Positions 4,355 through 29,100 of a stretch of 54,791 bases of DNA are shown piece by piece. Source of the stretch: a virus; the IMG/VR virus record IMGVR_UViG_3300033148_005125, positions 1 through 54,791 of that record; one strand, written 5' to 3'. The stretch's first letter is position 1. Each line of letters begins with the position of its first letter. Both the position numbers and the translations under genes were made by a program. The notes below the pieces were generated by a model that was not told where the DNA came from, made no database searches, and worked only from the letters and a program-made list of their open reading frames with translations.

Positions 4355-5959
4355 ATGGCTAGAAACAGAATAATTTATGCGAGTCAGTCTGTATGGTGTA
4401 ATGGTGAAGTACTTTACAGAGTGCAGTCACTTGGTAGTACCACTACATTCACGTCTGAAGATATCTTTGAACTTGGTCATTTAGATATTATTGATGTTGT
4501 TGATGACGTTCCTGCAGTGGCGGTGACTTTAAACACCAATGATTTTGGTGACTTGCGTACACTGGCTACTTTAGCTCAGCTAACTCCTGCAAAGAAAATG
4601 ATGGCTGCTACAGCAACAAGCGATAATGCGAATTTAGTTGTTGTTAGTGGTACCAATCTTGTAGAAACAGATACCTATCTTCATGGTGTTGCTTTAGCTG
4701 ACTTTGCTATTGTGTGTGGTAATTTACCTGGTGTTAGTGTTTGGGCACCTGTCCAAGATGAGTGTTCTCTTGGTACGCTGGCTAATAATATTGACCAATC
4801 CTTGTTCTTGGATGAAGTATATATTAATAGCTTGGAATTTAGTTATACAACCGGCGCTAATGCGACTGAAAACTATGGAGCTGAAACAGATAATAAAATG
4901 TGGCTGTTGAATGAGGGCCGTTTTGTTAACTGGGATGCTTACACATTAGAAAATGCTGATATTACTAATATGTATGTAGACCTAACATTAGTTTCTGGTA
5001 CTATTGTAACTCCTCTGTCTGATGGTGGAGCATCAGCTTTTTTGAGAAAGGATGATAATGGTGCTGCTGGAATAAGTTGGTATGATACTTCAGAAAATGA
5101 AGTTACTAATGTTGAGATCTCTACATCTAGTGGTACTGCTACATATTGGTATGAAAAATTAGATACTGGAATTACCAGAGTTCATTTCCCATCCACTGGT
5201 CTTTATATACCGGCAGAAACAGATAGGCTTGAAATACTATATGCTGCTAATGGATATGGATCTGCTGCTACCAGTACTTATTTTTCAGCGTTAGCTGATA
5301 TTGACAGACCTGATATGATTGGTGCTTTGAGACAGGGTCAAGTGGAAGTTTATATTGTGGCAAGTGATGATGTAGCTTTTGATAATGCTTGGAGATTAAC
5401 TGGTTGTACTATTTCGGCAGACCTTACACGTGAAGCTCTTAGTGAATTAGGACATCTTGCTCCATATGACCGACCACTGACTTTACCTATTCCTATCACA
5501 GTAACTGTCGATACTACTGCTGGTGATCTTGAAAATTGGTCTAAAGTGGCTAATAAATTGAGTGAGTTTGACGCTTTGACACTTAATGATATTGATCTTA
5601 CAGATCTTACCAAGTCGGAGTCTTTAAAATTAGTTATAAAAGTATTTGCTCAAACTGATGAGGAAGCTGGAGGAACTGCTTCTAATAGAACTATTTTTGC
5701 TGGTTCACCTTTAGTTGGACAGACTTCTATGTTAGATGGTGTAGAAAATGGTGTTTATATTTCTACTAATACAGAGTATGCTTTGAAAACCATAGTTGTT
5801 GAGCATTTAAAGATTACTGATGAAGGTAATACATTGGATGTGGGTGCTAATATGACCCAAACATTCGGTTTCAGATCTACTAACGATCTATTTGTTGTTA
5901 AAGGTGATGTGTCTATTGGTAATATCACTGGTGATTTAAAAATTAGAAGAAACGGATAA
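4355..5959 (+). CDS. major tail tube protein with two tube domains
   Basis: A 534-residue protein with a strong GGGAGG site after a long leader, and followed by a hairpin terminator: the usual set-up for the most abundant tail protein. Two regions repeat one pattern. Residues 20-75 carry RVQSLGSTTTFTSEDIFELG, then GHL, DDVPAVAVTLNTND and FGDL. Residues about 345-400 carry RLTGCTISADLTREALSELG, then GHLAPYDRPL, TLPIPITVTVDTTA and GDL. A duplicated tube domain is established for T5 pb6, which packs as trimers that mimic hexamers. The insert between the copies (about residues 100-330) is beta-rich and may be an outer decoration. No sheath gene is adjacent, which favours a siphovirus tail. Confidence 0.75.
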   Translation: MARNRIIYASQSVWCNGEVLYRVQSLGSTTTFTSEDIFELGHLDIIDVVDDVPAVAVTLNTNDFGDLRTLATLAQLTPAKKMMAATATSDNANLVVVSGTNLVETDTYLHGVALADFAIVCGNLPGVSVWAPVQDECSLGTLANNIDQSLFLDEVYINSLEFSYTTGANATENYGAETDNKMWLLNEGRFVNWDAYTLENADITNMYVDLTLVSGTIVTPLSDGGASAFLRKDDNGAAGISWYDTSENEVTNVEISTSSGTATYWYEKLDTGITRVHFPSTGLYIPAETDRLEILYAANGYGSAATSTYFSALADIDRPDMIGALRQGQVEVYIVASDDVAFDNAWRLTGCTISADLTREALSELGHLAPYDRPLTLPIPITVTVDTTAGDLENWSKVANKLSEFDALTLNDIDLTDLTKSESLKLVIKVFAQTDEEAGGTASNRTIFAGSPLVGQTSMLDGVENGVYISTNTEYALKTIVVEHLKITDEGNTLDVGANMTQTFGFRSTNDLFVVKGDVSIGNITGDLKIRRNG

Positions 5960-5984
5960 TGATTTAGGGTATTTAGTTTATAGG

Positions 5985-6010: not shown

Positions 6011-6040
6011 TTATAAAATAATTATGGGAGGAATATAGGC

Positions 6041-6289
6041 ATGGCAAGTAATAATAAAAGTAAGGAAAGAATGAATCGGTTAGTGGCAGATGAAGTTACT
6101 AAAATGTTTGAACATGCTCTTGATTATGCACAAGTTGCCTGCCCTACTGCAGATACATATAAAGTTCTAAGATCAAAAATTCTTAGAGTAGGTAATAATT
6201 GTATAAGAAATATTAAAAGAAAAATAGAACATTATGATGTTGAATATAAGGATATCTCTGAGGATATAATAGAAATTCCTGAGAGATAA
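6041..6289 (+). CDS. small helical protein of unknown function
   Basis: Eighty-two residues, with GGGAGGA upstream of ATG. It is mostly charged helix (RMNRLVADEVTKMFEHALDY), then KVLRSKILRVGNNCIRNIKRK and an acidic end (EDIIEIPER). There is no membrane segment or known motif. It lies directly after the tube terminator and before the two chaperone-like genes. It may belong to tail assembly, but that is inference from position only. Confidence 0.55.
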   Translation: MASNNKSKERMNRLVADEVTKMFEHALDYAQVACPTADTYKVLRSKILRVGNNCIRNIKRKIEHYDVEYKDISEDIIEIPER

Positions 6290-6324
6290 TAAATAAAAAG
6301 AAAAGGTAATGGAGGAGGTTTATA

Positions 6325-7095
6325 ATGGCAGAGGAAAAAAGAGATGATAGAAGAAGTTTTTTAGGACCTGATGGGGTAATTACTTACTATATAACACCAC
6401 CTAATGCAGAAGATATTAGAGGTGCTGATTGGCATTATAGTAAAATGTATACCCGCAGTTTGGTGGAAGGGATAACGACTAGTGCTGAAATGATGGATAT
6501 TCTAAGACAGAGAGGTATTATAGGACCTGAATTTGAGCAGCGCGCTACAGAATTACAAAAAGAATTGGGTGAAAAATTAGATCTTTTATATAAAGCTACT
6601 GATTTAGAAATAAAAAGAAATTTATCCCTTGAAGTGTATAACGCTAGAGAAGAATTATTTCAATGGAATCAAAGACTTTCTGGACCCATGAATAATACAT
6701 GTGAACAAATATCTGATGATGCTAGGTTAGAATATTTAACTTCTTGTATGATTCAAACAGAAGATGGTAAAAAAGTTTGGGATTCTTATGATAGTTTCTC
6801 TAAAGAAAAGAATACTGATCTGGCTGCGTTAGCTGTGAGATCTAGACTTGAAGTAATGTTATATTTACAAGGTTTAGAATCTGATTTTCTTGATAAGACA
6901 CCAGAGGCTATGGCTATGCGTGAAGTTGAAGAAGATATTATTAAGAGAGCCGAAGAGGCTTTAAAAGCTGCTGACGCAATAATACAGGAAGAAAAAGAGA
7001 TAGTAGAAGCAGATAAAAAAGCCGAGGCTAAAGCAAAGCCTAAAACCACTAAAAATAAAAAAATAACTAAAACAAAGAAGAATACTGACAACTAA
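6325..7095 (+). CDS. putative tail assembly chaperone, first of two tandem paralogues
   Basis: A 256-residue protein with a very strong GGAGGAGG site. The N-terminal 85 residues (FLGPDGVITYYITPPNAEDI, then EGITTSAEMMDILRQRGI) align by eye with the start of the next gene, so the two are paralogues. The body is helical. The last about 45 residues are an Ala/Lys/Glu tail, probably disordered. Its place between tube and tape measure genes is that of the gpG/gpGT-type chaperones that coat the tape measure protein. It ends with TAA at 7093-7095, followed after only three bases by the next ATG in the same reading frame. I see no convincing -1 slippery site leading into another frame. Confidence 0.55.
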   Translation: MAEEKRDDRRSFLGPDGVITYYITPPNAEDIRGADWHYSKMYTRSLVEGITTSAEMMDILRQRGIIGPEFEQRATELQKELGEKLDLLYKATDLEIKRNLSLEVYNAREELFQWNQRLSGPMNNTCEQISDDARLEYLTSCMIQTEDGKKVWDSYDSFSKEKNTDLAALAVRSRLEVMLYLQGLESDFLDKTPEAMAMREVEEDIIKRAEEALKAADAIIQEEKEIVEADKKAEAKAKPKTTKNKKITKTKKNTDN

Positions 7096-7098
7096 AAA

Positions 7099-8121
7099 AT
7101 GGATGTTACTCACGAAGAAACAGAGAAATGTCTATGTAAGATTTTTACAGGTAGTGACTTATTATATATTAAATATGGCGACGAGGATACTCATATTGAA
7201 TTTAGGCAGCCAAGCAATAATATCCGATTAAAAGCCAATATTGTTTATAATGAAGCATACGATAAAGCTATATCTGAAGGTATGTTGTCTACTGAAGATT
7301 TAAAAGCGTTGCTAAAAGAAAGAAATATTTTTACTCAAGAGGAAGAAGATCAACTTAACAGATTAGAATCAAAATTAAAAGGCCAAGAGGTTTTATTAGC
7401 TAAAACGATAGTTGTAAAAGCTAGACAAGACAGATTAAAAAAAATTGTGTCTGATTTAAAGAGTGAGATAAATGTTTTACAAGCTAAAAAAATTTCTATG
7501 CTGATGATGTCTGCTGATGCAAAAGCTGAGGAAGAAAGAACTTTGTATTTATGTTGGTCTTGTACATATAATAATGATACATTTGAATTGTATTGGAAAA
7601 CTTATAGGAATCTTTTGAAAGAAGATAATTTAGTATTTAAGGATGAAGTTTTATCAAAGTTTTTAAGGTTTTATAGGGGTGTAGATACTAAACTTATTAG
7701 ACATATAGCAAGAAGTAATTTATGGCGAATAAGATATATTACTAGTCAAAAGACGTCGGACCCTTTGTTTGGGGTACCAACGTCACAATATACAAATGAT
7801 ATGTTAAATTTGGCTTATTGGTCAAATTACTATCAAAATATTTACGAGATGCTTCCAGAAGATAGACCCCCAGATTTAATCATCGATGATGATGAAGCAT
7901 TAGATGCTTATATGCAGAGTTATTATGATGATAGAAGTAGGGAAAATGCGGCAAGGCGAAGTAAGGTTAAAACTAAGGGGAAACTATCAGCTTTTGATAA
8001 AGAGGAAGTAATCGTAACTCAATCGAATGAATTATATGAAGATATAAAATATGACAAACCAAGAGAAGCACGAAGAATTAAAAACAAAGCAGCAATAAGG
8101 AAAAAAACCAGGTCTGGTTAG
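7099..8121 (+). CDS. putative tail assembly chaperone, second paralogue
   Basis: A 340-residue protein. Residues about 15-90 (FTGSDLLYIKYGDED, RQPSNNIRLKANIVY, SEGMLSTEDLKALLKERNIF) share spacing and pattern with the preceding gene. Residues 75-135 form a probable coiled coil. A middle segment has C-x-x-C (LCWSCTYNND), and the C-terminus is very basic (ARRIKNKAAIRKKTRSG). The ATG has no Shine-Dalgarno sequence. It follows the upstream TAA by three bases and is in frame with it, so translation probably depends on reinitiation or stop readthrough. As the last gene before the tape measure gene it fits a tape-measure chaperone. It ends with TAG. Confidence 0.5.
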   Translation: MDVTHEETEKCLCKIFTGSDLLYIKYGDEDTHIEFRQPSNNIRLKANIVYNEAYDKAISEGMLSTEDLKALLKERNIFTQEEEDQLNRLESKLKGQEVLLAKTIVVKARQDRLKKIVSDLKSEINVLQAKKISMLMMSADAKAEEERTLYLCWSCTYNNDTFELYWKTYRNLLKEDNLVFKDEVLSKFLRFYRGVDTKLIRHIARSNLWRIRYITSQKTSDPLFGVPTSQYTNDMLNLAYWSNYYQNIYEMLPEDRPPDLIIDDDEALDAYMQSYYDDRSRENAARRSKVKTKGKLSAFDKEEVIVTQSNELYEDIKYDKPREARRIKNKAAIRKKTRSG

Positions 8122-8171
8122 GAATGATAGGATAAGAATAATAATGTTTTTGGTTTAAACTAATGTTTAAT

Positions 8172-8187
8172 GGAGGTGCTGTTCTTG
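8172..8187 (+). promoter_or_regulatory. ribosome binding site that sets a TTG start for the giant gene
   Basis: GGAGGTG (8172-8178) lies six bases before TTG at 8185. The in-frame ATG at 8170 overlaps this Shine-Dalgarno sequence and has none of its own. The natural start is therefore TTG, giving a protein beginning M(L)AKDEYTF and 7440 residues long. Confidence 0.8.
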
Positions 8188-11100
8188 GCTAAAGACGAAT
8201 ATACATTTACTTTCCTAAAGGGTTCTACACAATCTACAGGTGGTGGCGCAGCCAAAACTAAGTCACAAGCCGGTGATTCTTCTATGAAAGATCTTCGTAG
8301 AACCCTTGAAAAAATCTTTAGAGAAAGTTCTAAAGATAATTCCAATACACTTGCAAAATCACTAGAAAAAATAATTATAAAATTTGCTAAGATACAAACG
8401 CAAGTTAAAGGTACTGCTGCGTCCGCAGGCCTTAGTGGTGCTGATGCACGTAGAATAGCCAAAGAGGTAGCCTCTGAAATTGTTAATCAACAAATAAGAC
8501 AATTAGCCAAATCATTTCCATCAAAAACTACCACCACAAAACAATCAGATGATAAACTTATAAAGTCTATAGAAAGAAGTGCTGATAGACAAGCAAAAAC
8601 TATTATTGGTGGTCTTAATTCTATTTTATCTAGACATGGTGTACAGCTTGAAAACATTAAAGATTTAGAAAGAGCCATATCTGGAGCTGTAAAAAATGCT
8701 ATTCCTAAAGATACCAGTATGGGTATCAAAGAAATAGGTAGAGCAGTGACATCATTAAAATCTGGATTTAATGAAATAAACAAGCTTTCCAGACAAATAA
8801 TGTCTATGCGTAAAAGTGGCGGTGGTATAGATGTAAAAGAAATAAAAGAAATGATGAGTTCATTTCAAAAACTTAATAAAGATTTTAAACAAATAACTGA
8901 TTCTACTGTAAAAGCTGGTAAAGCAATAGAAAGTGTAACTAATGATGTTGTTGGGTTTAAGAAAAGTTTGTCAGAAGTAAAAAAAGCTGCTACATCAAAA
9001 GTACGTGGGGTTAGAGAGAGAGCTGAAGCAGATCCTTCTAAGTTTGCAAAAACAGCAGCTGTGGCTATAGGACAAACTTTAGAAAGAGCACTTCAAAAAT
9101 CACCTGGTTTTAAAGGAAGTGATTTAGAACGTAACATAAAAAAGTTAGGTGATAATGTAAAAGATATAGGGGATGTTTTAGATAAATTTAAAAAAGTACA
9201 GGCTGATATAACTACATCAACTAAAAAAGGTAAAATATCTATTGATACAAAGGCAATTATTGGTTTATCCAAAGACTTAGGTAATTTACCAGATAAAATT
9301 GGAGTTGATATAGATACTAAAGGATGGAAAGATTTAACTAAAGGTCTTGAAAATTTTGCAAAAACCGCAGATTTTATAATAAGTTCTTTAAAAAAATTAA
9401 AGGTATCCGTTGATGTAGATACTAAACCAATAGAAAAGAAAGTTGAAAGTGCAGTAAAAAGTGGTGTAGAAAAAGGGTTTTCAAATAATATCAAAGCAAT
9501 AATGAAAGAAGCAGATACTTCTTTTAATAAAGTTATAAGTGAAATGCGGGTTATGTATAAAGCATTACCCAAAGAAAGCCCCATAAGATCACGTTTTGAA
9601 AAAGCAGGCAAAGCATTAACAGTTGCTAAAGAAAGAGGAGATTATCTAGAGATAGCTAAACGTATTACTGGAATACAAGATGTTGTTAAAGCTCCAGTTC
9701 TAAACAAAGCTATAAATGAGTTAAAAGGTGTTATAGTAGAAATTACATCAGAACTTAAAGGGGCTGGTGTTGATGATGTATCAGGCGCATTAAAGAAAAG
9801 TGGTAAAGCTGTTGATGAGTTAACTAATACCATACTTAAAAAGAAAAAAGAGATAGATCAATTTCCTGCTAAAAAGTTTAATATATCTGGAGCTATGGAT
9901 AAAGTTAAATTTTTACAATCTACATCCAGACAATTCCCACAAGAATATATAAAACCAGGAAAAGAGTTTGAATTAAAGGGCACTGATATAGGATTTGGTG
10001 CAAATGTTAGACAGGCGGTAAAAGAAAAAGCAGATTCTTTAGCTAAATCTTTAGGGGCACTTGAACAAGATTTAATATCTGGTTTGGAAGCAGGTCCTGG
10101 ATTTCAGAAGGGCGGTTGGAAACTATTAGATAAAGAACTTAAAAGAGTGGGCCAACAATGGACTTTACAGATGGCCCAGATTGGTGGAGAAGAAGGAATT
10201 GAAGGTTTATTAAAACAATTAGATAAGACTTATATAAAAATCAAAGATCCAAAAAAGTTGTTAGCAGAGTATAAAAGTAAAAGAAAAGAAAAAATAACTA
10301 ATGTTGTAAAAGAGGATTCAAAGAGAGCAACAGAGGTTGGTAAATGGCTTATTCAAAGAAATGAAGATGATATAGAAAAATTATCTTTATCTAAACCTAT
10401 GGCAGGAACAATTAAAAAGTCACTTAAAACCATTAAATCTAAATTTAAAGGTACTGAAGTTGGCGAGATCATGCGTTCAGAATTAATTAGTAGTTTAGGA
10501 ACATCTTTAGAGGAGGTATTTAAAGAGACTTTCGCCGCAGATTTAGTTAAAAAAGAATTGGCTACTGATAGGGGTATAAAAGGACCACTTGTAAGAAGAA
10601 TGGCTATCCCAGCAGCAAAACTTTCTGAAACAGGTACTGCCACATTTAAAACTAGATATGGTACTGAGAGGGCTTTACCTAAATTTGCTACTTATAAAAC
10701 AGGGTTTGAAGAATTATATGATAAAATGACTAAACAACAAGCTATGGTGGGCGAGGAGGCTCGTAAATTTCAAAATGCTATAATTGATATAGGAATGAAG
10801 CCAACTAGTCCAAAAGCTTTTTCAAAAGCAAAAGATGTTTCTAAAGATATGTTAACCAGAATGGCTAAAACTGGTCCACAGCAGTTAGATTTTGTTATAG
10901 AGCAGTATAAAGAAGCTGCTACAATGATAGGTGCTAAAAGACAACAGGCTGGTGTGGGTTCTATAGAAAGTTATGAGAAGAAAATAAGTTCTGGGATAAA
11001 TAGTTTTAGAAATAAATATACTGATTTACCAGAGGTATTTGACAAATTCGTGGTTGAAATGGAAGATCTTGGTCTTTCTGCATATGATGTAGTTAAGTCC

Positions 11101-14100
11101 CTTGAATCTATAAAATTTGAAAATGTTTATGATATCTATAGAAAAGTTTTAAAAGGTAAAGTTTATAAAGGAAAAGGTGGTAAAAAAGATGTATTTGAAG
11201 GTCCTACCCCAGAAGTGTCACAATACCCTGGATCTAGACGAAATCTTAGACGGTTTGATCAGGCTGTTGCTCAAGTAGAACAGTTAATGCCTATAATAGA
11301 AAAGGCTAAGGTTAAAAGAGGTAAGCATCAGGAAGAAGTTACCACAACATTTTTTCAAACATCACCTATGTATAAAGGTTCCGAAAAAGAACTTAAATTT
11401 GATGCTGATAAACAAAAAGATAAAATATTATCTATAAATATGAATTTGAGAGACATGCTAAAAGAATATGAGACTTTGTCTCAGTCTGGCGCTGAAATGT
11501 CAATGCAAACAGCAAAAAGATTAGAACGATATGCTGGTGTTCCAAGGGGAGTAAAAACAATTTCAACATTAGGTCCTCCAGAAGAACAGGCATCTAAATA
11601 TACTGAATTTAGAGGTGGTAAGTTTGCAGAGAAGGCTAGATCTTTAGCACCATTAGAATCTACAGCTATAAAATTATATACAGAAAAACTATTGGATCAG
11701 GCACCGTTCGGTGAGTTTAGTAGACTTGGTAAACAGATAGGTTATGTAAACAGTGCTATGTCAAGTTTGAGTGATGATGCAAAGAAAGTTTTTAGTGTTG
11801 CTGGGATTACTACAGAAGAACCCAAATTTAGAACAACAAGAGAGCGAGAACTTACTTCTGCTGGTAGATACGGTTCTACTGGTTATGGTTTTAATGTTAT
11901 AGCAGAACTTAAGCATTCTGCTGATACTTTTGAAGATCAAGTTGTGGTCTCTGGCAATTTAGCAAAAGCATTAACACAAGCTGTTAGTACTTTAGTTAAA
12001 CCAGGTCCTAAAGGTAGATTAGGTAGTATGGCCGGAGCTCATGTTACTGATATTGAAAAGGGCCAGGTGTTAAGAGATACCACAGTTAAAGAGATAGGTA
12101 AAGTATCCAAACAATTTATGGAGATACTTGGTGTACCACAAGAATATAAGAAAGAAGCTGATAAAGCTTTAATAGAAACTGTAAAAAAAGAAATAATTAA
12201 TGTTAGGGGTCAGGATGTAGAAATTCAGAAGGCTCAATTAGCTGAAGTTTTTATGAATTATTTCGGTAGAAAGTTCACCACAAGGTATGGTTCTAAAGGT
12301 GTTAGTATAAGTAAGGAAGATTTAGGTACAGCTAAAATACCTAAATCAATGGGCCAGTTAGCGTCTGATATTATAGGTAAAATGGAGGAAGAAGGTAAGG
12401 CTCCTAAATTTGGTAAATTAAAAAATATTGCTGGTATACAGAAGGAATTAGTAGAATCAGGTAATAAGTTTATGATTAGTATGTTTAGTGATGCTACTAG
12501 TCAAGTTGCTAAAGGATTAGGTGTAGAAGAAGAAATAGAGAAACAAGCTAAGATATATAAAATGTTTACAGGTCTTATAAAACGGGTTTATGGTGAAGAT
12601 TTACCAAAAGATGTTGAGGGTATACTTAAGTTAAAAAGTCTTTATAAACAAAAAGTTGGTGGAAAGCTTTTTGAAGAAAAACCTATTGATATAAGAATAA
12701 GTGCACGTGGTGCTATTAAACGTGGTTTACAACCAGAATTTATAGAAACCATGATGGGTAATGTTATAGGTGCAGGAGCTAAAGAAACTACAGTTCAACC
12801 AAGGATTGAAAAAGGCGTTTATGAAAAAATATTAGGTACTAAAGGAAAAGCAGGGATGCTAAGCAGATATAGCAAAGCACTGGGTTTTGAGTCCGCCGGA
12901 CCTAAAAAGAAAGAAATAGAAAAAGAACTTTTTAAAACATTTAAAGCGGCCGGCAAAACCGATGAAGAAGCTAAAGTTATGGCTGAGAGAGCAGCCGCTT
13001 TTGAAGCATCCGCTAATTATTACACAACAGTTAAAAATGAATATGGAAAAGCAACTAAAAGTATAATAGGGCCTAAATTTGTTCAGATAATAGAAGAACC
13101 ACATGAGACAGAAAAGTGGTCTGCTAAAGGAGTAAAGGAGTTAAAGAAAGGAGCTAAAATAAATTTAGCTGCTTACTCTGCTTATGCTGGTGTTTTTGGT
13201 GAACAATCTTCTTTAATGAAGCAAATAAAAGGTGGGACTACTTTAGAGTCTAAAAAACAGTTTGAATATATAAAAGCCTTAGAAGCAATGGCTGTAAAAG
13301 GCCCAGGCAAAGAGATGGCAGATGCTTTAATGCAGGGTGTTAGAAAAGTTCCTTTGGGAGAACTACAAGAATTTGAACCACGTACAGGAACATTCAGTAA
13401 GGAGGATCTTGAAAGAAGTTTAAAAGGAACAGTTCTAGATATAGAAAAATATGCATCTGATTTTGCTGTAGATTTACCAGCTGGCAAGGGTGCTAAAGGT
13501 GAGATGTTAACAAAGCCTTTTTATATCCCAGGGCCATTAGCTAGACAAACATACCCAGAAGAATTATTAGCGGGCGAATATGGCATGGATGAAATAGCAA
13601 GATACTTACAGATGGTGATTAACACTGCTAAGGAAACAGAAGCAGCATTCTCTGGTGAAGGATCTAAAGTAAAAGATGTAAATAAGGTTATTAGAGATAA
13701 AGTTTTATCCGCTATAGCAAAGGCACAAGAAGGTGGTGTTACAGAAAAAACAGATGTACTTAATAAACTTTGGCAGGGTTTACAAGATATTGAAGTTGAT
13801 TTTGCTTTCAGAAAAGAAATGGGAGCTCCTGAAGGTACAACAGAAAAACAATATATAACTAAATATTTTGAAAAATTTAAAAGTAGATATGCTCAAACAC
13901 CAGGCAAAACTGAAGAAGATGCAATGTTGCAAACTATTCGTAGGATGGGTGATATATTAGTAGGTCCTAAACTAGGAGCTAGAAAAGATATAGCGGCCAC
14001 TAAACCAAGGTTAGCTAAAGAAGTAGAAGCTGGTACTACAGCAGCTTTTGCAAAAAGATTGGGTATAGATATAACTGATGATGAATTTATAGATAAAAAA

Positions 14101-17100
14101 TTAGATCAGTTGAGAAGAGCTAAAGTTACTTATATGAGTGCTTTAGCCAAATCTTTATTGGGTAAAAGCGGCGCTGTACAATCTACATTTTTCGAAAGAA
14201 AAGCACCAGCGGTTATGGGTAAAGCTATAAATGCTGTTACTGATAGAACATCCGAGTTAAAAGAATTTAGTAATACATTAAGAAAGTTAGCATCAGAAGC
14301 TGGGTTCGAAAAATATATAGAAGCATTTGGCAGTATAGCTAATGTTGTTGATGAAATAGGTGCTGAACACGCAAATATTATATCTAAATATAAAAAATCA
14401 GGTGTTCCTGTTTTAAAACAAGAAGAGCTTGGAATACCAGAGTCTATGGCTAAAAAAATGCCAGTCACATTTGAAAAAAGATATGAAATGACATCTGGTA
14501 TGCCTATACTAACTAATAAACCCAAAGCGGCTACTACTGTAGAATCTAATCTTTCTAAGATGTTGGATTATAAAAAAGAACTAGAAGAAGGTTTAAGTAA
14601 AGTAGATATTAAGTCAGACGTAAATGCTATTAAAGATTTCATAGAACAAGAATTAGTTCCTCATGTAGAAACTATGAGGTTCCCTTTCACAGGTGTTTCT
14701 TCATTACAACCATATAAAGCCAAAGTATTAAAAGAAGAAGATTATCCAAAAGGAAAATTTGCATACGCAGTGCCGGGTGTGCCTGAAATGAGAATGGCTA
14801 CTGAGGGTGATAAAACTGGTTTTGTTGAAGTAGTTAAAAAATTAGAAGGAATAAGAGATGATTTTATAAAAGCCAGAGAAGGATTACATACAACATCAGA
14901 AGCTGCAGGAATGGAAGCAGATCCATCAAGAGTAAAAGAACTTACTGATAAAATAGGAATGTTAGATGAAGCAATATCAAATGTGTTGCCTAGATATACA
15001 GCCATACAACAAAAATTAGATTTTGACGGTGATGAAATAGAAGCACATTCTGGTGTATTAGCGGGGGCTAGACGGGATATAAAGAAACATTTTGATACAC
15101 TCAATAAATCTACAGACTCTATTGAAACTGCTTGGAGACAAGTTAGAGGTTTTGAAGAAACTACACCAGGAGCCACTAGTTCTAGATTTCCATTTGCTGA
15201 TTTATTAACATATTTTGAAAGTAAGTGGAAACCTGAAAAAGGATATGAGTTTCTAAAAAGACCAGAAATAACTGAGAAATTAGAATTTTTAAAACCATCA
15301 GAAAAATTAGATATTTTATCCGGTGGCGAGCCACAAAAAATAGGCATGTTGTTGAAGGATATTACTTCAAGACAAGTTACAGAGTCAGGTCCTAGAGAAG
15401 AGATATTTGCTACTATAGATAAAAATATAAATGAAGGTAATAATACTTCCAAAGCATTATTAGAAGCTATAAAGATGTTAGATTCTGATTTTTCTAAGTT
15501 GATAGAAGCAGGTGTTAACGAAAGTCTATATCAGCAAAAATATTCGGATGCTATAATTGGTCAGTTATATAAATTACACACAGGACCAGATGTAGAGGCT
15601 GTATATAGAATGCAGAGAGTATCTGAATCTAGAATGGGTTTTGGTGGAGGTATGATAGCACCTGAAGAAGGTGGTTATAGAACCAATGTTTCTGATACTT
15701 TCAGAAAAAGGTGGCCAACAGGTTTAAAAATGTTAGGTAAAGTTTCACCTGAATCTGAGATAAGTACCTTCATGAATGAAATAAGTCGTTTTGCACAGCA
15801 AAAAGGTATGGATGTTAAATTAGCTGGTGAAAAACCAGTTGGTGGTGAGATGACTTCTTTATTAGGTAAGGGAACAGAGGGTATGGACATCCTGTTAGAA
15901 AAAATAGGTTTAGCAGGAGAAAAAGCTAATGATGATTACAAGCAATTAAAAGAATTTGCTGATACAAGTTCTAAAGTTATAGAAAAAAGACTAGGTACTT
16001 TACCCACAGAGGCAATAAAGAAAGAAGTTTCTGGATTAAGAAAAGTAAGAGGTATGCCAGAAATTACAATGGGAACCAGAAAACAAGCCGTGGATGAAGC
16101 TGTAAAATTGATAGGTTTTGAAGGTTTTCTTAGAGAGTTATCCAAACAAATAGAAGAAGATGCTGTAGAAGCTCTCACTGCTCAACTAGAGGCTATGCCT
16201 GAACATAAAAGAAAAAAACGTATGAGTAGAAAATCTTACCTGTCTACCAAAGAATTTGCTGAAGAAGAAATACAGACTAGCGAGAAAATAGGAAAGAAAT
16301 CTCCTACTGGAATAAGTACGTCTAAAATAATGCAACAGAGAGCACCTTTATATGGTTTTAGGAGCTCTAGCGCTACACAAGATGATATAGTAAAAGCATA
16401 TAGAGATACTGCAGAGCCAGTTGTAGCTCCAAAGTATTTGAAAGGTGATACTGCTTTAAAATATGAAAAAGCTCAGGAAGTTGCTTTAAGTATAGCCAGA
16501 TCTTTAAAAGAAGTAGGTCAAATGAGACCTGGTGGTGCTTATAGTGATTTAGTGTTGTCTACTATAGACAATATGTACAAAGAACAAGCAAAGAAAGAAT
16601 CCACTTTAAACGATTTAAGACAGGAAGGTTATAATATAGGTATAAAACGTGAGACATCTGATATACCACAAAGAATGTTTGAAGAAGGTATGCCTGACAT
16701 ACCATCATTTATTAGAGAACTTATAGATCCTTCAAATACTGCAGCTAACTCTTTACAAGAACTTAAAAAAGAAGTTGATGCTCTTTCTTTATTAGCAGGG
16801 GTACCCCCACTTAGTGCTGAAACCAGAAAGCAAATTAAAATAGATATGCCAGAATTAGGTGCCGCTGCCAGAGCAAAATATCCAGAAATAGTAGAAGAAA
16901 GTGAAATTGCTAAATCTGAACGAGAGAGTAAAATAAGTGAATTTACTGATTTACTAATTCAAAAGGCTCAAGCAGTTGCTCAAATGGATAGAGCTATAGC
17001 TTCTTTAATATCTTCAAAAGGTTTTGAAACTAAATTATTACCCCCAAAAGAGGATGTTAAAAGAGCTTTAAATGAAACTATAAAAGCTACAATAAAAGCC

Positions 17101-20100
17101 CCAATAGGTAGACCAACTATTGTTGAACCATCAACTACTAGAGAACTTAGACAAGGTATAGAAAAAGCAAGTGATATGTTTTTTTCAAAAACACAAGAGG
17201 TAAGTAGAATGCCTGTTGTTGGTGGTCCTACCGGTCCAAGCGATATAGGTCCTAGTGGAACATTAGCTGGAAGGCTTAGTGATGAGGTAGTACGTGTTCA
17301 TATACAAAGTGTTCAAGAAGGTATAGGGCTATCTTTTACACCTGCCGGCGCCATGCAGGATGTTATAGAGTCTAGAAAACCAGATAGAAAAGGATATACA
17401 GATGAATTAAAAGAATTACAAAGAAGATCTGCTGGGGTAACTCAAACTTTAGAAGAAACTTATGCAAATGTTTATAGAGCAAGTGCTCTATCTGGTGGTG
17501 GTATATACGGTAGTAAAAAAGGTAGTAGAGAACAACAACAAGTTGAATCTATAAAAGAATATATGAGAACCGGTAAAAAAGAAGTTCCGCCAAAAGCTGA
17601 AGCTATGGCATTTGAGGGAACTGTTATACATAAAAAGGAGCAAGATAGATTAATAAAAGAAATAGAGGCACAGACTGGTGGAAAAGAAAAGTACGATGTT
17701 GAAAGATATGTTAAATACACCAGTTCAATGGCAAAAGATATAACTGGTCATGTAGATCTAATTAAACAAAGATTAGATGAAGATACTCAGGAATATGTTG
17801 ATAATAAAATTATAGACATTAAAACTGTTAGTGATAAAATGGTAAAAAGATTTAAAGATTTAGGTGTAGAAAAATTTTCAGATTTACCAGAACTAAAAAA
17901 GAAAGGTGGATTAACAGAATACGATGTACAAAAATTAGAAGATGTAGCTTCCCAACTTAATTTATACATAGCTGCTGTAGCACAAGCTAATAGTGTTGCT
18001 GCAGATAGTCTTAAAGGCGAAGCTTGGTTTTATGATAGAGATGATATAAAAAATATAGCTAAAGTAAGTTTTGATTTTGATCCTAATAGATTAAAAAAGG
18101 ATATAGACGCTGTATCTAAAGCAAGAAAGTCCATAGTTTCTGAATATGGTAAAGATGCATTTGCTAAAGCTACACATGTAATAGATTTAGAAAAAGCAGA
18201 TGCTAAACGTAAAGCTGGAGTAGAACCATTATCTACTAAAGAATGGAAAAGGTTTGAGAATATATCTAAAGAACATAGAAAGATGGTAGAAGATCCAAGC
18301 AGTGATTATTGGAAAAGAGAAAAAGATGTAAAACCTAGAAGTATTGATAAAGAAAGACTTAGGGAGGAAAAAGGAAGTCAAAGAGCAAGGTTTGAAAGTT
18401 ATACAATACCAGAAGCCCCTGTGATGGGAGAAGCAGTTTATGATCAACTAGAAAACCTTAAACTTGTACATAAAGCAGCTAAAGATTATCAATTAAGATC
18501 TAAAGGTATAAACATGAAAACTGTTGGTACCGATATTCATGAAAGTTTAGCTCCTATAATAGAAAATGTACAAGAAATAGGACCACAGGGTAATGCATTT
18601 TCAGAAGCCATCGAGGATTTAAAATTTGCTGGAATGATTGGTGGTGGTGAAATAAGTAAAGCTTGGAAATATTACAGAATAGCGTTGGGTGATTTTTATA
18701 TAAAACAAGCTGAAGAAGCTAAAAAATTAGAATCTGATTTACAACAACAAGGTGAGTTAGGTGGAGCAAACGAGGCTTATCAGCAAGCAGAACGTACTAT
18801 AAATGATATGAAGAAAAGGATGTCTCAATCATTAGGCAAACCTTCTGATATTTATACTGAAATGAGACGTTATATATCTCCAGATATTATGCAGCAATTA
18901 GGTTTGTATTTAACACCAGAGCAACTTATTACTAAATCTAAAGGTTCTTTAGGGGATGATGAAAAACTTGATAAAATATTTAAAGAAGGTATTGTTGGTG
19001 ATGTATTAGAGGGCGGAAAACTTACTGCTCCTATAGAAAAAGTCAGAGATGCTTTAAAAGGAATTAGTGATTTAGATGAAGACATGGTTAAAGTATTAAC
19101 TGATGCAAACAAGCTTAAAAAGGTAGGACCTGAAATACAAGAAGCTTGGAATTTTGAAAAACTTACTGATAGAGTAACTAAATTAAGAGCGAGTTTAGAA
19201 ACATTTTTAAGATTTAGATTGCAAGAAGATGACGATGTAGTAGGTAGAAAAAATTTAGAAGATACGTTAAAACTTTTAAAGAGTTTAGAAAACCAGTATT
19301 CATCTCTTGGAAGAGTACAAAAAGAAGGCCCTGCCGGTTGGGGACAAATGGGTCTTGTTAAGGTTCCAAAATTTGTTGAACCTAAACAACAATATGCAAT
19401 GCATATGAGAAACGTCCAAAAGACTAGAGAATATTTTGGAAAGATAGAAGAAAAAGGTGGTCCAAAAGCTGGCGAAAGATACAGCTATATGTTTAAAGTG
19501 ATAGGTGAATCTGGCGACACAATAAAAAATGCAGTATATGATTTTAGAAAGTATGGAGATGCTGTAAATTTTGCAGGTGAAAAAGTAGGTGTTTTTAAAG
19601 AAGATCAGCGCGATATGTTTGAGTTCATGCAGGAAGGCGGTAGGACTTTTAGATCTGCTATTATGCGTGCTATTAGATGGGGCGCTGCTTCTAGAATAGT
19701 CTATGGTGGATGGCAGAAATTAGGTCAATCTATAGGATTGCTTGCTGATATTGAAACTGGTATGGCTAATCTAAGAATGGTTATGAGTCCACTAGAAACT
19801 GATTTTGGTGGTTTGGGCAAATCTGCTATAGGTTTTGCTAAACAATATGGTGTACCCATGACAGATGTGCTTAAATCTATGAAGATTTTTGCTCAACAAG
19901 GTTTAAAGCAGGAAGAAGTTGTAGATAGGACTCAAACTGCTACTTTAGCTTCTAACGTTACTACTTTAAGTGCAACTGAGGCTACGGAAGCTTTAACTGC
20001 TGCTATGAAAGTTTTTCGTCAAGAAGGCGAAAGCTCTATGAAATTTATGGACGCTTGGAGTGAGGTTGAAGCTAAGCATGCTATTACATCTGGTGATATG

Positions 20101-23100
20101 GCAAATGCTTTAAAGAAAGCAGCGTCCGCTGGTAAGAATGCTGGATTTTCTTTTGATGAATTAAATGGTGTTGTAGCAGCTATAGGAGCAGTAACTAGAC
20201 AAAGTGGTAAAGAAGTGGGTACCGCTATGAGATTTATTTTTAGAAGACTTACTAGTGAAAAAGGTCCAAAAGAATTAGCTAAAATAGGGATACCTGTTTT
20301 AACTGATACAGGAGAACTTAGAAAAGGTTTTGACGTTCTAGATGATCTGTCTAAATCTTGGAAAGATTTAACCAGTGCTCAAAGAATGAATATAGCACAG
20401 GCTATTGGTGGTACAAGACAATATAATGCTCTCTTAGTTTTAATGGATAATTGGGGTGAAGCTCTTAGTGCTATTAAAGATAGTACTAATTCTAAGGGTT
20501 CAGCTGAGAGACGTAATTTAGAAATAATGAAGACTTTTACTAAACAGATGGCGCAGATGAAACAAGCTGCTACTGAAGTTTATATGTCTTTTGGTAAGAT
20601 TACATTTCCAGCAGCTAAGGTTGGTCTGAAAGGTTTAAAGTTTTTGTTAGAAGCTTTTACTGAGGTGCCTGGTGTTATAAAAGGCGCTATGATAGCGATA
20701 TCTGGTTTCTTTATTTATATGTCTAAGGGTGCTGATATTATAGATTATTTCTTTGAAAGATGGAGAGGTGGTAAATCTATAATAGGTAATGTTATGAAAG
20801 AAATTGGTAATGAATGGACTATGGGAATGTCAGAAATGTTTGGAACTGGCGCTCTTGAGCAGAATTTAAAAACTATAGGTAAAGGTAAAAAAATAAAAAT
20901 ACCTGTGGGTGTTTTTGATGTAAGCCCTAAGGGAGTAGCACAAGAAAGAGTTGTGGAAAGATCAGTACCACAAGGTAAAAAATTAGGAGATTTCCATTCT
21001 GTATTAGGTAAAACAACATTTTTACTTAAACAGACTGGTATGGCTTATAATGATTTTATAGGTGATGTAATTAAAGGAAGCGGAGACCTTGCTAAAGATA
21101 TGGGCGGTCCTTTTGAATATATTTCTAAAAAAATGTATGCTTTAGAGAGTATGTTTAAAAAGCTTACTAGTACTATGGTTAATCCAGAGATGATAATAAC
21201 GGCGTTAGAAACTGGTGGTTTTGTAGATTTAATTCCTGGAATCATCGGTACTGTAGGAATTGTTGCTAGTAAAGCAACTGGTGATGCTACTAAAGCCGTT
21301 TCTAAATTATCAGATTTTGCTGGAGATAAGTTTGGACAGACAGGAAAATCTTTTGTAGAGGGATTTGCTTCCGGTAATACCGATATGGTTAAGGCTTTAG
21401 CTCCGTTGGGTGCTACTATTATTGCTCTTTATCCAGCACTTAAATCTTTAAGTGAATATTATATGAAAACTACACAATCTGCACAAGATTATGAAAAGGC
21501 TATGTATGGTGTCAGACGTGCTAATGAGAGTCAATTAAAAGGTATTAGAGAATTAATGAGTGGTTATTCAGGTTTAGAAAGTTCCATGGCTGATGTTGCT
21601 AAAGTATCAGATCCTAATGTAAAAAAACGAAGACAAGAATTAGGTACTTTTGAAAGTCCATTATTAACTATGTCTTCAATTATTAAAAAATCAAGAGATT
21701 TATCAAATAATTTAGCTGACAGTAATATTAATTTAGTAGTAGGTTATGATAAATTTGGTAATGCTATTTTAAATGTTACTGGAAATCTTAAAGATTATTT
21801 AAAAACTTTAGAAAATATAAAAGTAAAAGAAGTAGCTAAAGTTGAAATAGATATAGCAGCTAAATTTATTACAGATTTAACAGAAATAGAGGGACCAGAA
21901 AAATGGAAATATGCTTTAAAGAATTTACTTAAAGAAGCCCCTGCTTTCGGTGAGGTTTTAGCTAAAGGTATAAAAACATCTCCGGCTAAAGCTATGAATG
22001 TAGTTACTGAAAGATTAAATGATATGTTAGCACTAAAAAAGAAATTTCCTATGTCCACAGCTTTTGATAAAGATATAAATAAACATCAAGCTAATTTAAA
22101 GAAAGTACGTTCTGGTTTCAGCGCCACATATTCTGATTTTAGAAGAGTCTTATCTGATATAACAACAAAAGGTTTAGGTAAAGATGAGATAGCAGCATTA
22201 TTAGGCACTAAAGAACTTCGTAAAGGTTATGAATTAATGATTGAAGTTGAACCTAGATTTAATCTTAAGGAAACAAAAGGTAAAGTTGAATGGCAGGATG
22301 TATTAGGGGCAGAAGTTATGAGAAGAGCATTTCCTTCTTTTGCTGCTACATTTGATGCCACATCAGTTTTAACTAAAGCAAGATTAGAGACTTCCGGAGC
22401 TGTTAAAAGAGAAGGGAAAGCTATGTCTGGTGATGTAGCCTTCTTTATGGATAGTGCTGCTGATAAATATGGTATAGCTGGAAATCAAGCTGTTGTTTCT
22501 CTAAAAGAAACTACTGATGGTGTGTTTGATTGGTTTATTACTTATTTCAATAGTAAAACTCTTAAGATAGAAGAAAAACCATTTACAGAAGATTTACAAG
22601 GTATGGTTGAAAGTATATTCCCAAAGAATAGAATAGAAGAAGAGTTATCTGAGAGAGTGCAATCTCTAAACGAGTTCGTAGCAGGCGCTTCAGCTGGTTT
22701 GAGGGGATTATCTGCTAAAGATTTCAAGAAAGATTTTGGTCTAGGTGAAAGATTTTTCTCTGAAATTCCTACTACTACTATATTACAAGGCCCAAAAGGA
22801 TTTGTTCCTAGCGCTGCCGGCGGAGCGGGTACTTTTGGCCAATCTCCATTTCAAAAAGATTGGAAAGAAACTACTGAACAATTTTTCTTTAAACCAATGC
22901 GTGAATATAGACTTAAAGCTGATCAATTAGATAAACTTAAGCTTGAAGGTTTACAGGGAGGAGAAGTTACTTTAGCAAAAGGTTTATATGAAGAATTAAC
23001 TAAATTACAAAATACATTAAAAAATAATCAAGTAGTTTTACAATACAGAGCTGTTTTTGCTGATTTAACAAAAACACTAGAAGAAGGAACTAGAGCATTA

Positions 23101-26100
23101 AAAGAAAATTTAGCAATTGAGAAAAGCAGGTTGAAACTAAGAAAAGGTGTAGCTGGTTATCAAAAAGGTATCCCAGAAGGTTTAGATGATATAGATCTTG
23201 GCGTTCAAAAATTTTCTGATTTAACTGTAAAACAAAGAGCACTTATGGCAGGACCTGAATATGGTAAATCAGCTATTAGATTTAGAGAATTGGAAACTAG
23301 AAAGGGTGCTGGAGAAGAACAAGTTTACGGTATAGATAGAGCTTTAGTAGCATTAGAGAATATAAGACAAGTTTCTAAGGGGTTTGGTACTTCTTTAAGT
23401 CCTGAAGACATGAAAAAATATACTGAAATAATAGCTAAAACTGATGATACAGGTGCACAATCTATAGCGATAGAGACCAGTAAGGTTGTGGATAACACTG
23501 CTAGCACTGTTGATAGATTAGATCAAATTTTAGAAAATATGGGAGATGTTAGTGTATTAGAAAAACAATTAGAAAATATAGGTAAAATGTCTCCTAGTTC
23601 TATGGTTAGTATGATGGAGAAGGTAGCTAGAGTTAGGGAGAAGAAACTTGAAACTGGTGATAAGGAATCAGTTAGGGCCACTAATAAAACTTTAGATGTA
23701 TTGGTAAATAGTCTTGTTGAACAAGTAGGAATTAAAAAAGCTATGTCTATGGTTGATAATAGTTTTACATTATTTTCTAAGAGGTTTAAACCAGAAGAAT
23801 TTACACAAAGAGCTTTTGGTGGATTAGATTTTAAACAGTTTACAACCAGTATGAAAGAAAATTTACCAACCCAGAGATCATTTTTCAAAAGATTTTTAGG
23901 GATTGGTGAAAATATATCTGGATTTGATAAAGAAATAAAACCATTGGTTAAATTACAAGATAAAAATAATAAAGAACAATGGGTTAGTTCTAAAGAAATG
24001 ATTAAATTGTCTGCTGCCATGGCTGTTTGGTCTTCTTTTAATAAACACCAATCAAGTAGAGTTATAAAAGAATTAGAGGGCCAGAAAAAAGAGTATAAAG
24101 TTGGAAGTAAGGAAAGAGTAGCTATAGAAAAAGCTATAGAAAAAGAAAGAACAAGCGGTATAATGGAAGGGAGAGGTGGGGAAAATGTCTGGAAATTAGC
24201 ACAATCATTTTCTTTCTTAACAGGCACTGTTGGTATGTTTGCTAAAGAATTAGGTATGACTGAAAGACAAATAAAAACATTAGGTGGTGCTTCTGCTGGA
24301 TTATATGCTGGTTTAAAATTAGCTAGTAAAATTACTGGCGATAAATTACCAGAGTCTGCTAAAAAATTTGAAGCTAGTTTAAAAGAAGCAGCACTCACTG
24401 GTAAAAAAGGTCCTTTAATAACTGCTAGTGCTGAGTTAGCTAAAGATGCTAAAAAAATGTTTAAAAAAACTGGCGCTATCTCTGAAGAAGAGTATAAAAA
24501 AACAGCAACAGATAAGGATTTTAAACAGTTTAAAGACGCTCTGGATTCGGCAGTTACGAAACAAGGTGATATGTCTGATAAAGTTGGAGACTTTTTAAGT
24601 AAGGCTAGAAGTCCAAAGGTTGTAGATGAAAGATTTTTAACAAAAATATTAACTACTTATTTAGCAGCAACAGCTGCTGGATATGCTGCCCAAAGAACTG
24701 AAGATGAAACACGATTAGCCACACTTAATTCTCAAGCTGAAAAAGAAGCAAAATTATTCGTGGAGATTGTTGAAAAATACCCTAAAGCTGCACAAAAAAT
24801 GATAGATGCTAGAAAAGAATTAGTAGATAATATAGAAAAAGTAAAACCAGTTCCCACCACAGAGAAATCATTAGTGATGGATACTGAAAAAGAACGGGAA
24901 AAAATTGTTGGTGATCTATCTAAAATTAGAAAAGATATTATAAGTGAACATGAAAAAATGAATAGTGAGTTATCTAAAGTAGCTAAAGAAATGGCTAAAT
25001 TAGAAATAGCAGAAAAGTTTAAGATAGAATTAGAGGAAATGGAACGTGCTATTAAAGATATAGATATTGCTTCAGCCACTCAAAGAGTTTTAGAAACGAG
25101 TTTGTCTGGATTTACTGGCGGTTCTGTTTTTGGTGGTGGTACTATAAGACGTGATTTGGGAACCCAGTGGTCTGGTGATGTTTCTAATATGATAGAAGAT
25201 CGTTTTGAGGATATGTCAAACACACTTAGATTTCCTAAATCTGCTGGTAAGTTAGTTGGTAAATATAAACCCCAATCTGTAGATTATGGTATTAGAGGAA
25301 TAAGTGAAATGACGCCAGAACAGTATATGGTTCATACTGGAAAAAGAGTTGCTTATAAACCATCATTAGGTCAGTTTTTTGGACAAGAAGTTTCAGGGCC
25401 TCAGCGCGGAGAAATGGGAATTGTTACATTATTAAAAGATGTTCTCTCTGGAAAAACTTTAGGTATATCTAAAGTAAGAACTGCTGAAGACATGTTCAGC
25501 AATCTTGAAAATATGCAGAAAAAAAGAGAGGTAACAGAAGCTAAATTTATAGAACATATGTCTAGAAGAGAGGAGCTTAGAGGCAGAAAAGGGAAATTAT
25601 CTGAAACAGAAAGTGCCGAATTAGATAAACTTGATAATATTATAGAATCGCTTGGTGATGGTTTAGTTTCCATGGTAGAAGATATAGCTAAAGCTAAAGA
25701 TGCTTTGAAAACAAGTTTGGAGGAGGCTGCAGATGTTATAAGACAAAGAGTAACAGCTTTTGATGCTTTAAGAGATCTTAATGAATCTAATATAAATAGA
25801 ATGTACGGTAATACAGCTGTTGTGAATAGAGGTTTAGCTGGTTTTGGTGGTGGTTATGATCTACCAATGGGCAAGAGAGAAATGTCATTACAACAACGTA
25901 TTTTTACTGACGCAACTAGCGGTTTCAATGAAAGGACCAATGAGTATGCATATAAATTAAACACTTTAATTCCTAGTATGTCTCAAAATATATCAGAACT
26001 CACACAGATGAGAGAGGATGTACCGGTTGGTGACACTGACAGATATAATGAATTAACCAAACAAATAGAAAAGTCAAAAAGTGCTATGGATAAAATGATT

Positions 26101-29100
26101 GAGAGTACTAGATCTATGGGTGAGGCTCTATTTGTGGCTAATAAATTTGCTGAAGTGATGTATAAGTTCAAAGATGCTATTGAGGATATACAAATAAATG
26201 AAACTGTGGAAGGTTTATCAGGTTTTAAAGGTTTTAGAGAAAGCATGGATAAAGTTTTTGGTGGTGCCCACCCATTAGCCCCAGTACAGGTGTCCCCTGA
26301 AGAGGAACGAAGGGCTGCACAGGTTGGTATAGAACTTAAAGATTTACGTTCTACCCAATTTGATAAGATGGAAGCAGAATCTAGATATAAATTAAGGTAT
26401 GGTGGTCTAAAAGGTAAAGATTATAGAGAAGCAACACAACAATATTTAGACATACCAGAACTTAAAGCTAGAGCGGAAGAAGCTTATAAACAAAGACAAG
26501 AAGTGTCACAACTTCAAAGACAAGCGGCGCCTTTTGAAGAAATATTGAAAATGTTGCAACGTTTATCTGTATCTGAAACCATAACTCCTGAAAGAAGAGG
26601 AGAGGTAATAGCTATGAGGGATTCAATAGCTAATGCTATAGATGGTTTTGGGGATATAATGACTCAACAGCAAAAATTGGATGAGTTAGAAAAAAACAAA
26701 GGAATGTTTTCTAAGGAAGAGTATACACAAGTTAAAAAATCAATAGAAGAAGGAGCACCAGAACAATATAAAGGTTTACAAGCTTTCAGTCAAACTGGAC
26801 TTATGAAAGAATTTGGCGCTGAACTTCAAAAAATGATGCAAGTTACACCGAAACCAGATGATTTAGAAAATATTTTTGGTAAAAGTTTGGGTGATGTTAC
26901 TTCACGTCAAGATACGCAAATAAAAATATTAACTCAGATAGCTCAAAAAGGATTTGGTCTTTCTCCAGAAGACATGGGTATAGTTTCTCCAAAAGACATT
27001 GATAAATCAGGAGTGTTTGAAACTATAATAAGGACACTAAGAAGTGTTGGCAGTGTTTGGGATAAAAAGGCTGGTGGTGGTAGAATTTTTGGGGCTGGTG
27101 GTCCACGCGAAGATAAAGTTCCAGCTATGCTAAGTCCTGGTGAATATGTAGTAAGAGCAGCGTCTGCGCAGAAGTTAGGTTATGGAGCTCTTGAACATAT
27201 GAATCAAAAGGGAGAAGTTCCAGGATTTGCTGAAGGCGGCCGCGCAAAAAGATTTAAAATAGATCAACAGTTTGGCACTATAGAATATACTGCTTATGAA
27301 AAATCAGAAGTTAAAGAAGAAAAGAAAAAAGAAGAATTAGTTGCTAAAGAATTAATGAAAAAAACTAAAATAGGTAAAACACTTTCAGATAGACAAAAAA
27401 GGTTGAAAGAAGCTTTAGGTTATGCGGGTGGTGGTGCTGTTGAAACATTAAGATCTATGGGCATGTCAGAAGAAGATATTAAGAGAGAACTTGGTGGTCT
27501 TGAAGAACCACTGTTAGGTCCTGGTGATATCATAGGTATGGCCGCAGGAGTTGGTAAATTAGCATTAGGTTTAGGTAAAACTGTTGTCAAACAAATAGTT
27601 AAAAAACCTAAAACTTATGAAGAACTTCTCAAACCTGGAACTAAAGATGTGATTGATTTTATTAAGAATAGGTTAGCTGAACCAGGTGATTTAGTTACTG
27701 AGAGCAAAGCAGCAAGAGATGCGTTAAGTAGTGGAAGGGGCGATTTCCTAAGAAGGCAGGGATTACTTCCTTCTAAGAAATTTTCTAATATAAAGAAAGA
27801 ACTTCCTGAATTTACAGGTTTTGCGGACGGTGGTAAAGTTTCTTCTGAGGAAGTTTATGGTTTTATTAAGGAAGCCGGTAGAAAACATAATTTGGACCCA
27901 GAATTGTTGAGAAGAATGGTAGGGGTTGAAAGTGACTTTGATCCAAGAGCTGTGTCTAAAAAATCAGCTATAGGACTTGCACAAGTTTTATTATCAACTG
28001 CTCAAGGAATGGGTTATAAAGGTGATGCTGAAGGACTTAAAGATCCTCGTACAAGTATAATGTATGGAGCACAATATCTTAGACAAATGCTTGATAGATT
28101 TGGCAGCATTGAATTGGCTCTTGCAGCATATAATGCTGGTCCTTATGCAGTTGAAAAACATGGAGGAATCCCTCCATATAAGGAAACAAAAAAGCATATA
28201 CCTAAAGTTTTAAAAGGTTATAAAGGACCTGTTATTTTTCCAGAAGAAAGAAAAACAGGGGCTATGGGGGCACCTAAAAAACTAAAACCAGCAGCTGCTA
28301 CGACAGGGACTATGGGAGCACCTTCTAAAACTGGTAGAATGGGAAGAGGTTTAAATATACCTGTAAAAGACAAAGTTAGATATTTTACAGATGAGGGTGA
28401 AGTGGATAAAGAATTGTATGAAGCAACACTACATGGTGGTTCAGCACAACATAGGACTGATGGATATGAACCAATTTTGGAAGGTAAATCTGTAACTGGT
28501 TTTAAAAGAACTGGCACATGGGATGTAGAGGGTGAAAAGGAATGGGAGGGAAGACAATTAGTTGCTTTAGAGGAAAGATCTAAAAAAACAATAAAAGCTT
28601 TAAATGCTGGAGTTTATGATTATGATGTTGGTACACCTTTAATTGTTCCAGAGAAAAAAATTCAACTAGAAAAATGGGTAGATGATAAAGAATCAATGGA
28701 TTGGATAAATTCTGTGGTTGAAGCCAGACGTAAAGAAAGACAAGAAATAATTAAATCTTACCAATCTGGTGGTTTAATTACAGGAATAGATAAAGAGGAA
28801 GAAGAAAGATTATATAAAGGTTTTGGCCCAAGAATGTATGGTAGAGAAACATCTAAAAGAGTACAAGATACTTTTAGAACAGATGCTTTAGCTAAAGCAA
28901 AACAAAGAGTTAGTGAGGCTACAGCAGATACATTTGAACCTAAAATTGGTGAAACAAAGCGTATAACTCCAGGTAAGGCCAGTGATATAGAGTTTAGAGG
29001 GTATAAAATACCAACACCAATATCAAAAGCCGGTAAAGACCAAATATATGGTGGAACTATAACACCAGGTCCTAAAGTTAAAGGAGAACTATACGAGCTT

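Follow-up and report, generated by a model that had tools for sequence, protein, structure and literature searches.

Adjacent short and long putative tail assembly chaperone genes in an uncultured tailed phage and its relatives

We report two adjacent paralogous genes, A and B, in the IMG/VR record IMGVR_UViG_3300033148_005125 (54,791 nt, analysed over its full length and called the window below), which comes from an uncultured tailed phage. Gene A (6325..7095, + strand) and gene B (7099..8121, + strand) quite probably encode separate short and long tail assembly chaperones, with A in excess and B kept low through termination-reinitiation. We annotate A as a putative short tail assembly chaperone of 256 aa (TAC-N, gpG-like) and B as a putative long one of 340 aa (TAC-NC, gpGT-like), likely names for two genes that the family libraries searched did not recognise. 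Across a broad uncultured group of 121 loci, duplicated genes seem to supply both products, whose dose seems to be set at initiation. A testable proposition is that selection keeps the short:long ratio and not frameshifting as such.

The gene pair and its relatives

The start-stop junction between A and B is ordinary in itself, and the gene pair is real and well conserved. The first-pass annotation had described two genes in one codon phase, separated by one TAA, with a second ATG that follows three bases on and lacks a Shine-Dalgarno sequence, and all of this is confirmed. The two starts lie 774 nt, or 258 codons, apart (7099-6325), and the junction reads ...AAC TAA AAA ATG GAT..., with the TAA at 7093-7095 and the ATG at 7099-7101. 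Gene A has a strong Shine-Dalgarno sequence, GGAGGAGGT (6311..6319, + strand), with an anti-Shine-Dalgarno duplex energy of -12.8 kcal/mol, against +0.2 kcal/mol at the start of B; the lack of a site at B is not due to chance. The stop of A, the 3-nt gap and the B start (7093..7101, + strand) together form the proposed termination-reinitiation site.

The earlier claim that the genes are paralogous, with a duplicated N-terminal domain, also stands. BLASTP aligned A and B with 21% identity over 132 aa (E 5e-5), and profile-profile comparison with hhalign gave E 1.1e-12 over 167 columns with 20 relatives on each side; with deeper profiles of 30 and 32 sequences, the probability was 99.7 and the E value 3e-27 over 183 columns. 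Judged by these alignments, the paralogy is real and not a chance resemblance. AlphaFold2 models (mean pLDDT 83.3 for A and 81.3 for B) have the same order of elements in the shared domain, with predicted helices of 20, 10, 23, 29, 17, 5, and 19 residues in A and of 20, 10, 23, 29, 16, 5, and 16 residues in B. In A, the shared domain covers approximately residues 10-190 and is followed by a long helix and a lysine-rich tail. In B, BLASTP, the profiles, and the matching secondary structure place the domain paralogous to A at residues 1-193 (7099..7677, + strand), and a C-terminal T-like domain that is absent from A follows at residues ~197-292 (7687..7974, + strand).

Scans of viral contigs and one genome scan yielded 121 distinct loci, of which the genome-contig scan contributed one (L038, a MAG contig). 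In 46 loci the short gene comes first and the long gene second, as in the window (short-long order); in 71 loci the long gene is followed, after a few hundred bases, by the short gene (long-short order). The long-short order is exemplified by L113:3992-6228, with a long chaperone, a small ORF, a short chaperone, and a tape measure gene. The remaining loci are L015, a short-long locus whose short gene contains a stop, two that are cut by a contig end, and L111, which has a single N-domain. Both genes are present in all but three of the 121 loci, namely the two contig-end cuts and L111. Since duplicates were removed by identical stretches only, near-identical phages may count more than once; dereplicated counts use the tree representatives (~62% identity). 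An ORF of more than 500 codons with a start lies downstream of the pair in 42 of 46 short-long and 66 of 69 long-short loci, the loci being cut at the flank. In L015 (4231-4998), an in-frame TAG is found about two thirds along the short gene, for which sequencing error and suppression are candidate explanations; other long ORFs in this locus end in TAA or TAG.

A phylogenetic tree was built from 77 short and 77 long N-domains and that of L111 (quick search, midpoint root). The short and long domains lie on opposite sides of one branch with moderate SH-aLRT values (87-89), and members of both gene orders are mixed within each side. This topology fits one ancient duplication that occurred before the two gene orders parted.

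Ribosome sites and the translation of gene B

The ribosome site of the short gene is stronger than that of the long gene in 45 of the 46 short-long pairs (Wilcoxon 4e-9) and in 64 of the 69 long-short pairs, with one tie (Wilcoxon 6e-10). These counts exclude the four of the 121 loci that have neither order and two without a candidate start. After dereplication, the short gene is stronger in 25 of 26 short-long and 46 of 48 long-short pairs. An initiation imbalance in favour of the short gene is thus a conserved feature of the pairs, with site strength serving as a proxy for dose. The single short-long exception is L088, in which the long gene has the stronger site. Median anti-Shine-Dalgarno energies in the short-long loci are -9.3 for the short gene, -3.05 for the long gene, -10.45 for the tape measure gene, and -9.9 for the small ORF upstream, so that the neighbours have normal sites and only the long gene stands out. 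In the long-short loci, the tape measure sites (median -4.35) are as weak as those of the long gene (-4.2), and the weak long-gene site is therefore less telling there. A weak Shine-Dalgarno-like GGAG is kept near the long start in L007, L010, and L011.

Among the 44 short-long pairs counted, gaps span -1 to 91 nt, plus one of 801 nt. The gap and frame counts cover these 44 pairs and 19 long-short pairs of 69 rows, omitting L015, L111, and any row for which no start had been called. A gap of -8 to +10 nt is taken as predictive of termination-reinitiation in a passage of PMC10666635, which also states that reinitiation needs short distances in E. coli and Haloferax and that coupling is nearly abolished at gaps of more than 20 nt. 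The +3 nt gap of the window lies inside that range, as do those of 25 of the 44 pairs; seven more reach up to 20 nt. The first-pass annotation had named reinitiation as one possible route to B, and the window gap and these 25 relatives support this reading, under which termination-reinitiation probably yields B in small amounts. Twelve of the 44 gaps exceed 20 nt, and reinitiation therefore cannot hold throughout the family. No excess of promoters was found near the junction (5 found versus 10.8 expected over 5900-8300). Genes linked by termination-reinitiation often encode subunits of one complex, according to PMC10666635 and PMC6728339. A and B resemble such pairs in their gap and differ from them in that B lacks a Shine-Dalgarno sequence and that some relatives have hairpin-containing gaps of 44-91 nt.

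We propose the following scheme. With its strong Shine-Dalgarno sequence, A would be made in excess, and ribosomes stopping at its TAA would now and then restart at the ATG three bases further along and so yield a little separate B. On the model of lambda gpG and gpGT, the tape measure protein may be covered by many copies of A, and a few copies of B, with their extra C-terminal domain, may recruit the tail-tube subunit. The unequal dose would be set at initiation, in place of the -1 frameshifting of lambda, and in relatives with a longer gap a hairpin possibly sets it.

B might instead be translated by independent, Shine-Dalgarno-free initiation on an A-rich leader with ribosomal protein S1, uncoupled from A. 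The junction in the window is indeed A-rich and almost unstructured (MFE -3.8, z -1.15), and in L028, L036, L079, and L083, with gaps of 44-54 nt, the long gene also lacks a site (+0.6 to +1.9). Against this, 32 of the 34 called genes in the window use a Shine-Dalgarno sequence that scores -4.0 or stronger in the duplex calculation; only B and the truncated last gene at 54555 do not. The last gene (54555-54791) also follows a stop, with its start 2 nt past it, which points to coupling. Uncoupled initiation at B thus appears unlikely.

Assignment to tail assembly chaperones and comparison with known systems

The first-pass annotation had called the genes chaperone-like and analogous to the lambda G/GT pair. 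Three lines of evidence favour that view: position, the pairing of a short with a long form, and, at modest Z, the predicted fold. Because they agree, we read A as TAC-N and B as TAC-NC, and the chaperone function assigned to both is by analogy. The pair is flanked by the probable tail-tube gene on one side and by a giant tape measure gene on the other. In VIA-align searches, the HK97 chaperone 2ob9 matched the A model with Z 7.7 and rmsd 4.9 over 96 of 107 residues and the B model with Z 8.3 and rmsd 7.3 over 104 of 107 residues. It was among the top rows for both models, the other rows being mostly generic helix pairs; these Z values are at or below the level at which the tool warns of a merely common helical arrangement. 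The 2ob9 match surfaced only with VIA-align; the Foldseek PDB search of A was uninformative, and no match reached E 0.001 in the Foldseek searches of A and B. Weak fold matches in a viral library were annotated chaperones of Arthrobacter phage Faja for B (E 0.013) and of Rheinheimera phage barba for A (E 0.11).

Named families gave little. Searches of A, B, and their relatives returned no family assignment from Pfam, with sub-threshold hits only, or from PHROGs, with weak scattered hits only. The best hit of the short-family profile against PDB sequences had E 0.085 and was unrelated, and 2ob9 was not listed. When 50,697 records of annotated phages were searched with tblastn, none matched any of the six queries (five long proteins and a T-domain). 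A and B could accordingly be some other paralogous pair of morphogenesis proteins, a reading favoured by the lack of a sequence match to named chaperone families and by the modest Z of the structural matches. We regard it as improbable, as the pair adjoins the tape measure gene, the N-domain is common to the short and long forms, and the alignments to the HK97 chaperone cover 96 and 104 of its 107 residues.

The HK97 chaperone, nearly all of which is covered in the alignments to both predicted models, is smaller than A and B, and the short-family profile found no sequence similarity to it. The likeness to lambda gpG/gpGT is in arrangement: A and B are upstream of the tape measure gene, and the N-domain is common to both forms, the long one adding a C-terminal domain. 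Unlike lambda gpG/gpGT, A and B are two genes, each with its own N-domain and with no frame overlap, and their dose is apparently set by initiation strength and not by frameshifting. Since B shares the frame of A, has a separate start, and contains a full N-domain, the pair would work like G/GT without being a frameshift gene. Chaperones of the G/GT type are further characterised by a large excess of the short form, by not being part of the virion, and by binding to tape measure and tube proteins. In lambda, the 30:1 molar ratio of the two proteins is described as crucial for tail assembly in a passage of PMC5009743, where the chaperone frameshift is said to be widely conserved among long-tailed phages except T4. 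A passage of PMC12846349 gives the short isoform as the major one and the long isoform as the minor one. In our pairs, to judge from the initiation sites, the A:B ratio would likewise favour A.

T4 gp26 and gp51, which we take to be the tail chaperones of T4, are similar to each other (E 2e-6), and one hit record labels a gp51 homologue "tape measure protein assembly chaperone". The profiles of A and B gave hhalign probabilities of 0.1-0.2% against gp26 and gp51, a weak test because single T4 sequences were used. The gp26 and gp51 genes are on opposite strands, whereas A and B are adjacent on one strand. Separate short and longer chaperone genes in some T4-like phages are reported in a passage of PMC10885494, citing Vladimirov et al. 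2022; like those duplicated chaperones as described there, A and B consist of a short gene and a longer gene that repeats the short part, with no frameshift. The first-pass annotation had called the duplicated N-domain an unusual variant of the lambda pattern. Given the report from T4-like phages, separate chaperone genes are not new in kind, and that description is only partly borne out. As far as our searches go, the novelty lies in the phage group and sequence family, in the layouts with both genes adjacent on one strand, and in the pattern of initiation strength and hairpins. No paper that joins tail assembly chaperones with paralogy and gene duplication was found among the open-licence PMC papers searched, a result that applies to that collection and does not imply absence from the literature. 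A search of the same collection for chaperone reinitiation or phage-tail translational bypassing returned only the frameshifting review PMC5009743.

We rejected two ways of fusing A to B after tests of frame, stops, and gaps in the relatives. The first is readthrough of the TAA, which would give an A-B fusion of ~598 residues as the equivalent of GT. In its favour, A and B of the window share a frame with no further stop ahead of the ATG, and 13 of the 44 short-long pairs are in frame. That share (10 of 27 pairs after dereplication) is at chance level among the related pairs. Of 47 short-gene stops, 41 are TAA, six are TAG, and none is TGA, and a same-frame relative, L011, has two in-frame stops in a row at the junction. 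All 20 aligned B sequences have a start codon at the corresponding position. As neither the frame nor a leaky stop is conserved, and the spacing varies as well, the fused product of 600 residues suggested by the first-pass annotation finds no support among the relatives; moreover, B already has a full N-domain of its own, so that a fusion is unnecessary for a GT-like product. We consider readthrough very improbable. Just as hard to credit is a -1 frameshift late in A that would likewise produce an A-B fusion, as in lambda G/GT. Of 32 short-long pairs with gaps of -10 to 20 nt, 19 have a frame relation that fits such a shift, and in L013 the last part of A contains an A AAA AAG run (by eye). 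In the window, however, A and B are already in one frame and cannot be joined by a single shift; in the first 21 junctions, the frame of B is open for just 0-33 nt ahead of its start; and the N-domain is already in B.

Hairpins and neighbouring genes

All 12 short-long gaps of 44-91 nt fold into a strong hairpin. Stems of at least 8 pairs were present in 11 of 11 such gaps (median z -4.6), in 0 of 6 gaps between the small ORF and the short gene, and in 10 of 32 gaps between the long gene and the tape measure gene (median z -0.2). In the long-short loci, 37 of 49 gaps between the short gene and the tape measure gene contain one (median z -3.9). The stem counts exclude gaps of less than 38 or more than 110 nt, and L028 is left out because an upstream start was chosen there. 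Stems thus follow the short gene in both the short-long and the long-short order, and the hairpin is recurrent in both. It could act as an attenuator, a stabiliser of the 3' end, or an aid to reaching the next start. The junction in the window is too short for such a hairpin.

L111, represented by one contig, has a different organization. In its locus (L111:3868-4923), a single N-domain ORF, the only N-domain found there, precedes a hairpin of 17 pairs; the T-domain beyond the hairpin lies in another frame and lacks a start codon of its own. No standard slippery site was seen. Because the T-domain is out of frame and lacks a start, a long form would need frameshifting or ribosome bypassing. 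The N-domain scores 120 and 123 bits with the two families and attaches on the branch between them. As a query, it retrieved itself and just one other locus, L171, where the long and short genes are separate, and a T-domain scan gave no second L111-like locus among the 121. L111 may preserve the arrangement before the duplication, its long form being made by recoding, or its gene may simply be broken. A speculative history, to which we give little credence, is that the pair arose from one recoded gene, that the hairpin stayed as a dosing device, and that the lineage of the window swapped it for a reinitiation start without a Shine-Dalgarno sequence. An ORF at L111:4907-5279, which by eye resembles S-adenosylmethionine decarboxylase, adjoins the chaperone locus.

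Upstream of the pair, the probable major tail (tube) protein gene (4355..5959, + strand, 534 aa) is named from its position and size only, and it has no Pfam or PHROG match. A hairpin seen by eye after this gene (5985-6015) is absent from the terminator listing. The small ORF that precedes the short chaperone (6041..6289, + strand, 82 aa) has no family in Pfam or PHROGs. The short gene is preceded by a small ORF with a start in 46 of 46 short-long and 64 of 69 long-short loci, with homology judged by eye, and an R..IL..GN..R-like pattern is visible by eye in both gene orders.

Downstream, the tape measure protein gene (8185..30507, + strand) was recognised from its length, its position, and its sequence by eye. 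It has a probable TTG start at 8185, for which the Shine-Dalgarno sequence at 8172..8177 (+ strand) gives an energy of -10.6; the ORF as listed runs from 8170 to 30507 and encodes 7,445 aa. Tail length usually amounts to 0.15 nm per tape measure residue, and 7,445 codons would correspond to a tail of ~1.1 micrometres. The ORF also contains a lytic-transglycosylase-like stretch (by eye). Among the tail genes, two overlapping ORFs at 38111-39153 resemble the halves of a thiamine-diphosphate decarboxylase, the first of them matching Pfam TPP_enzyme_N with E 6e-4, below the cut-off. An endonuclease-like ORF at 48290-49381, also between tail genes, scores 30.5 bits with Phage_endo_I against a cut-off of 29.1 and is possibly a homing endonuclease.
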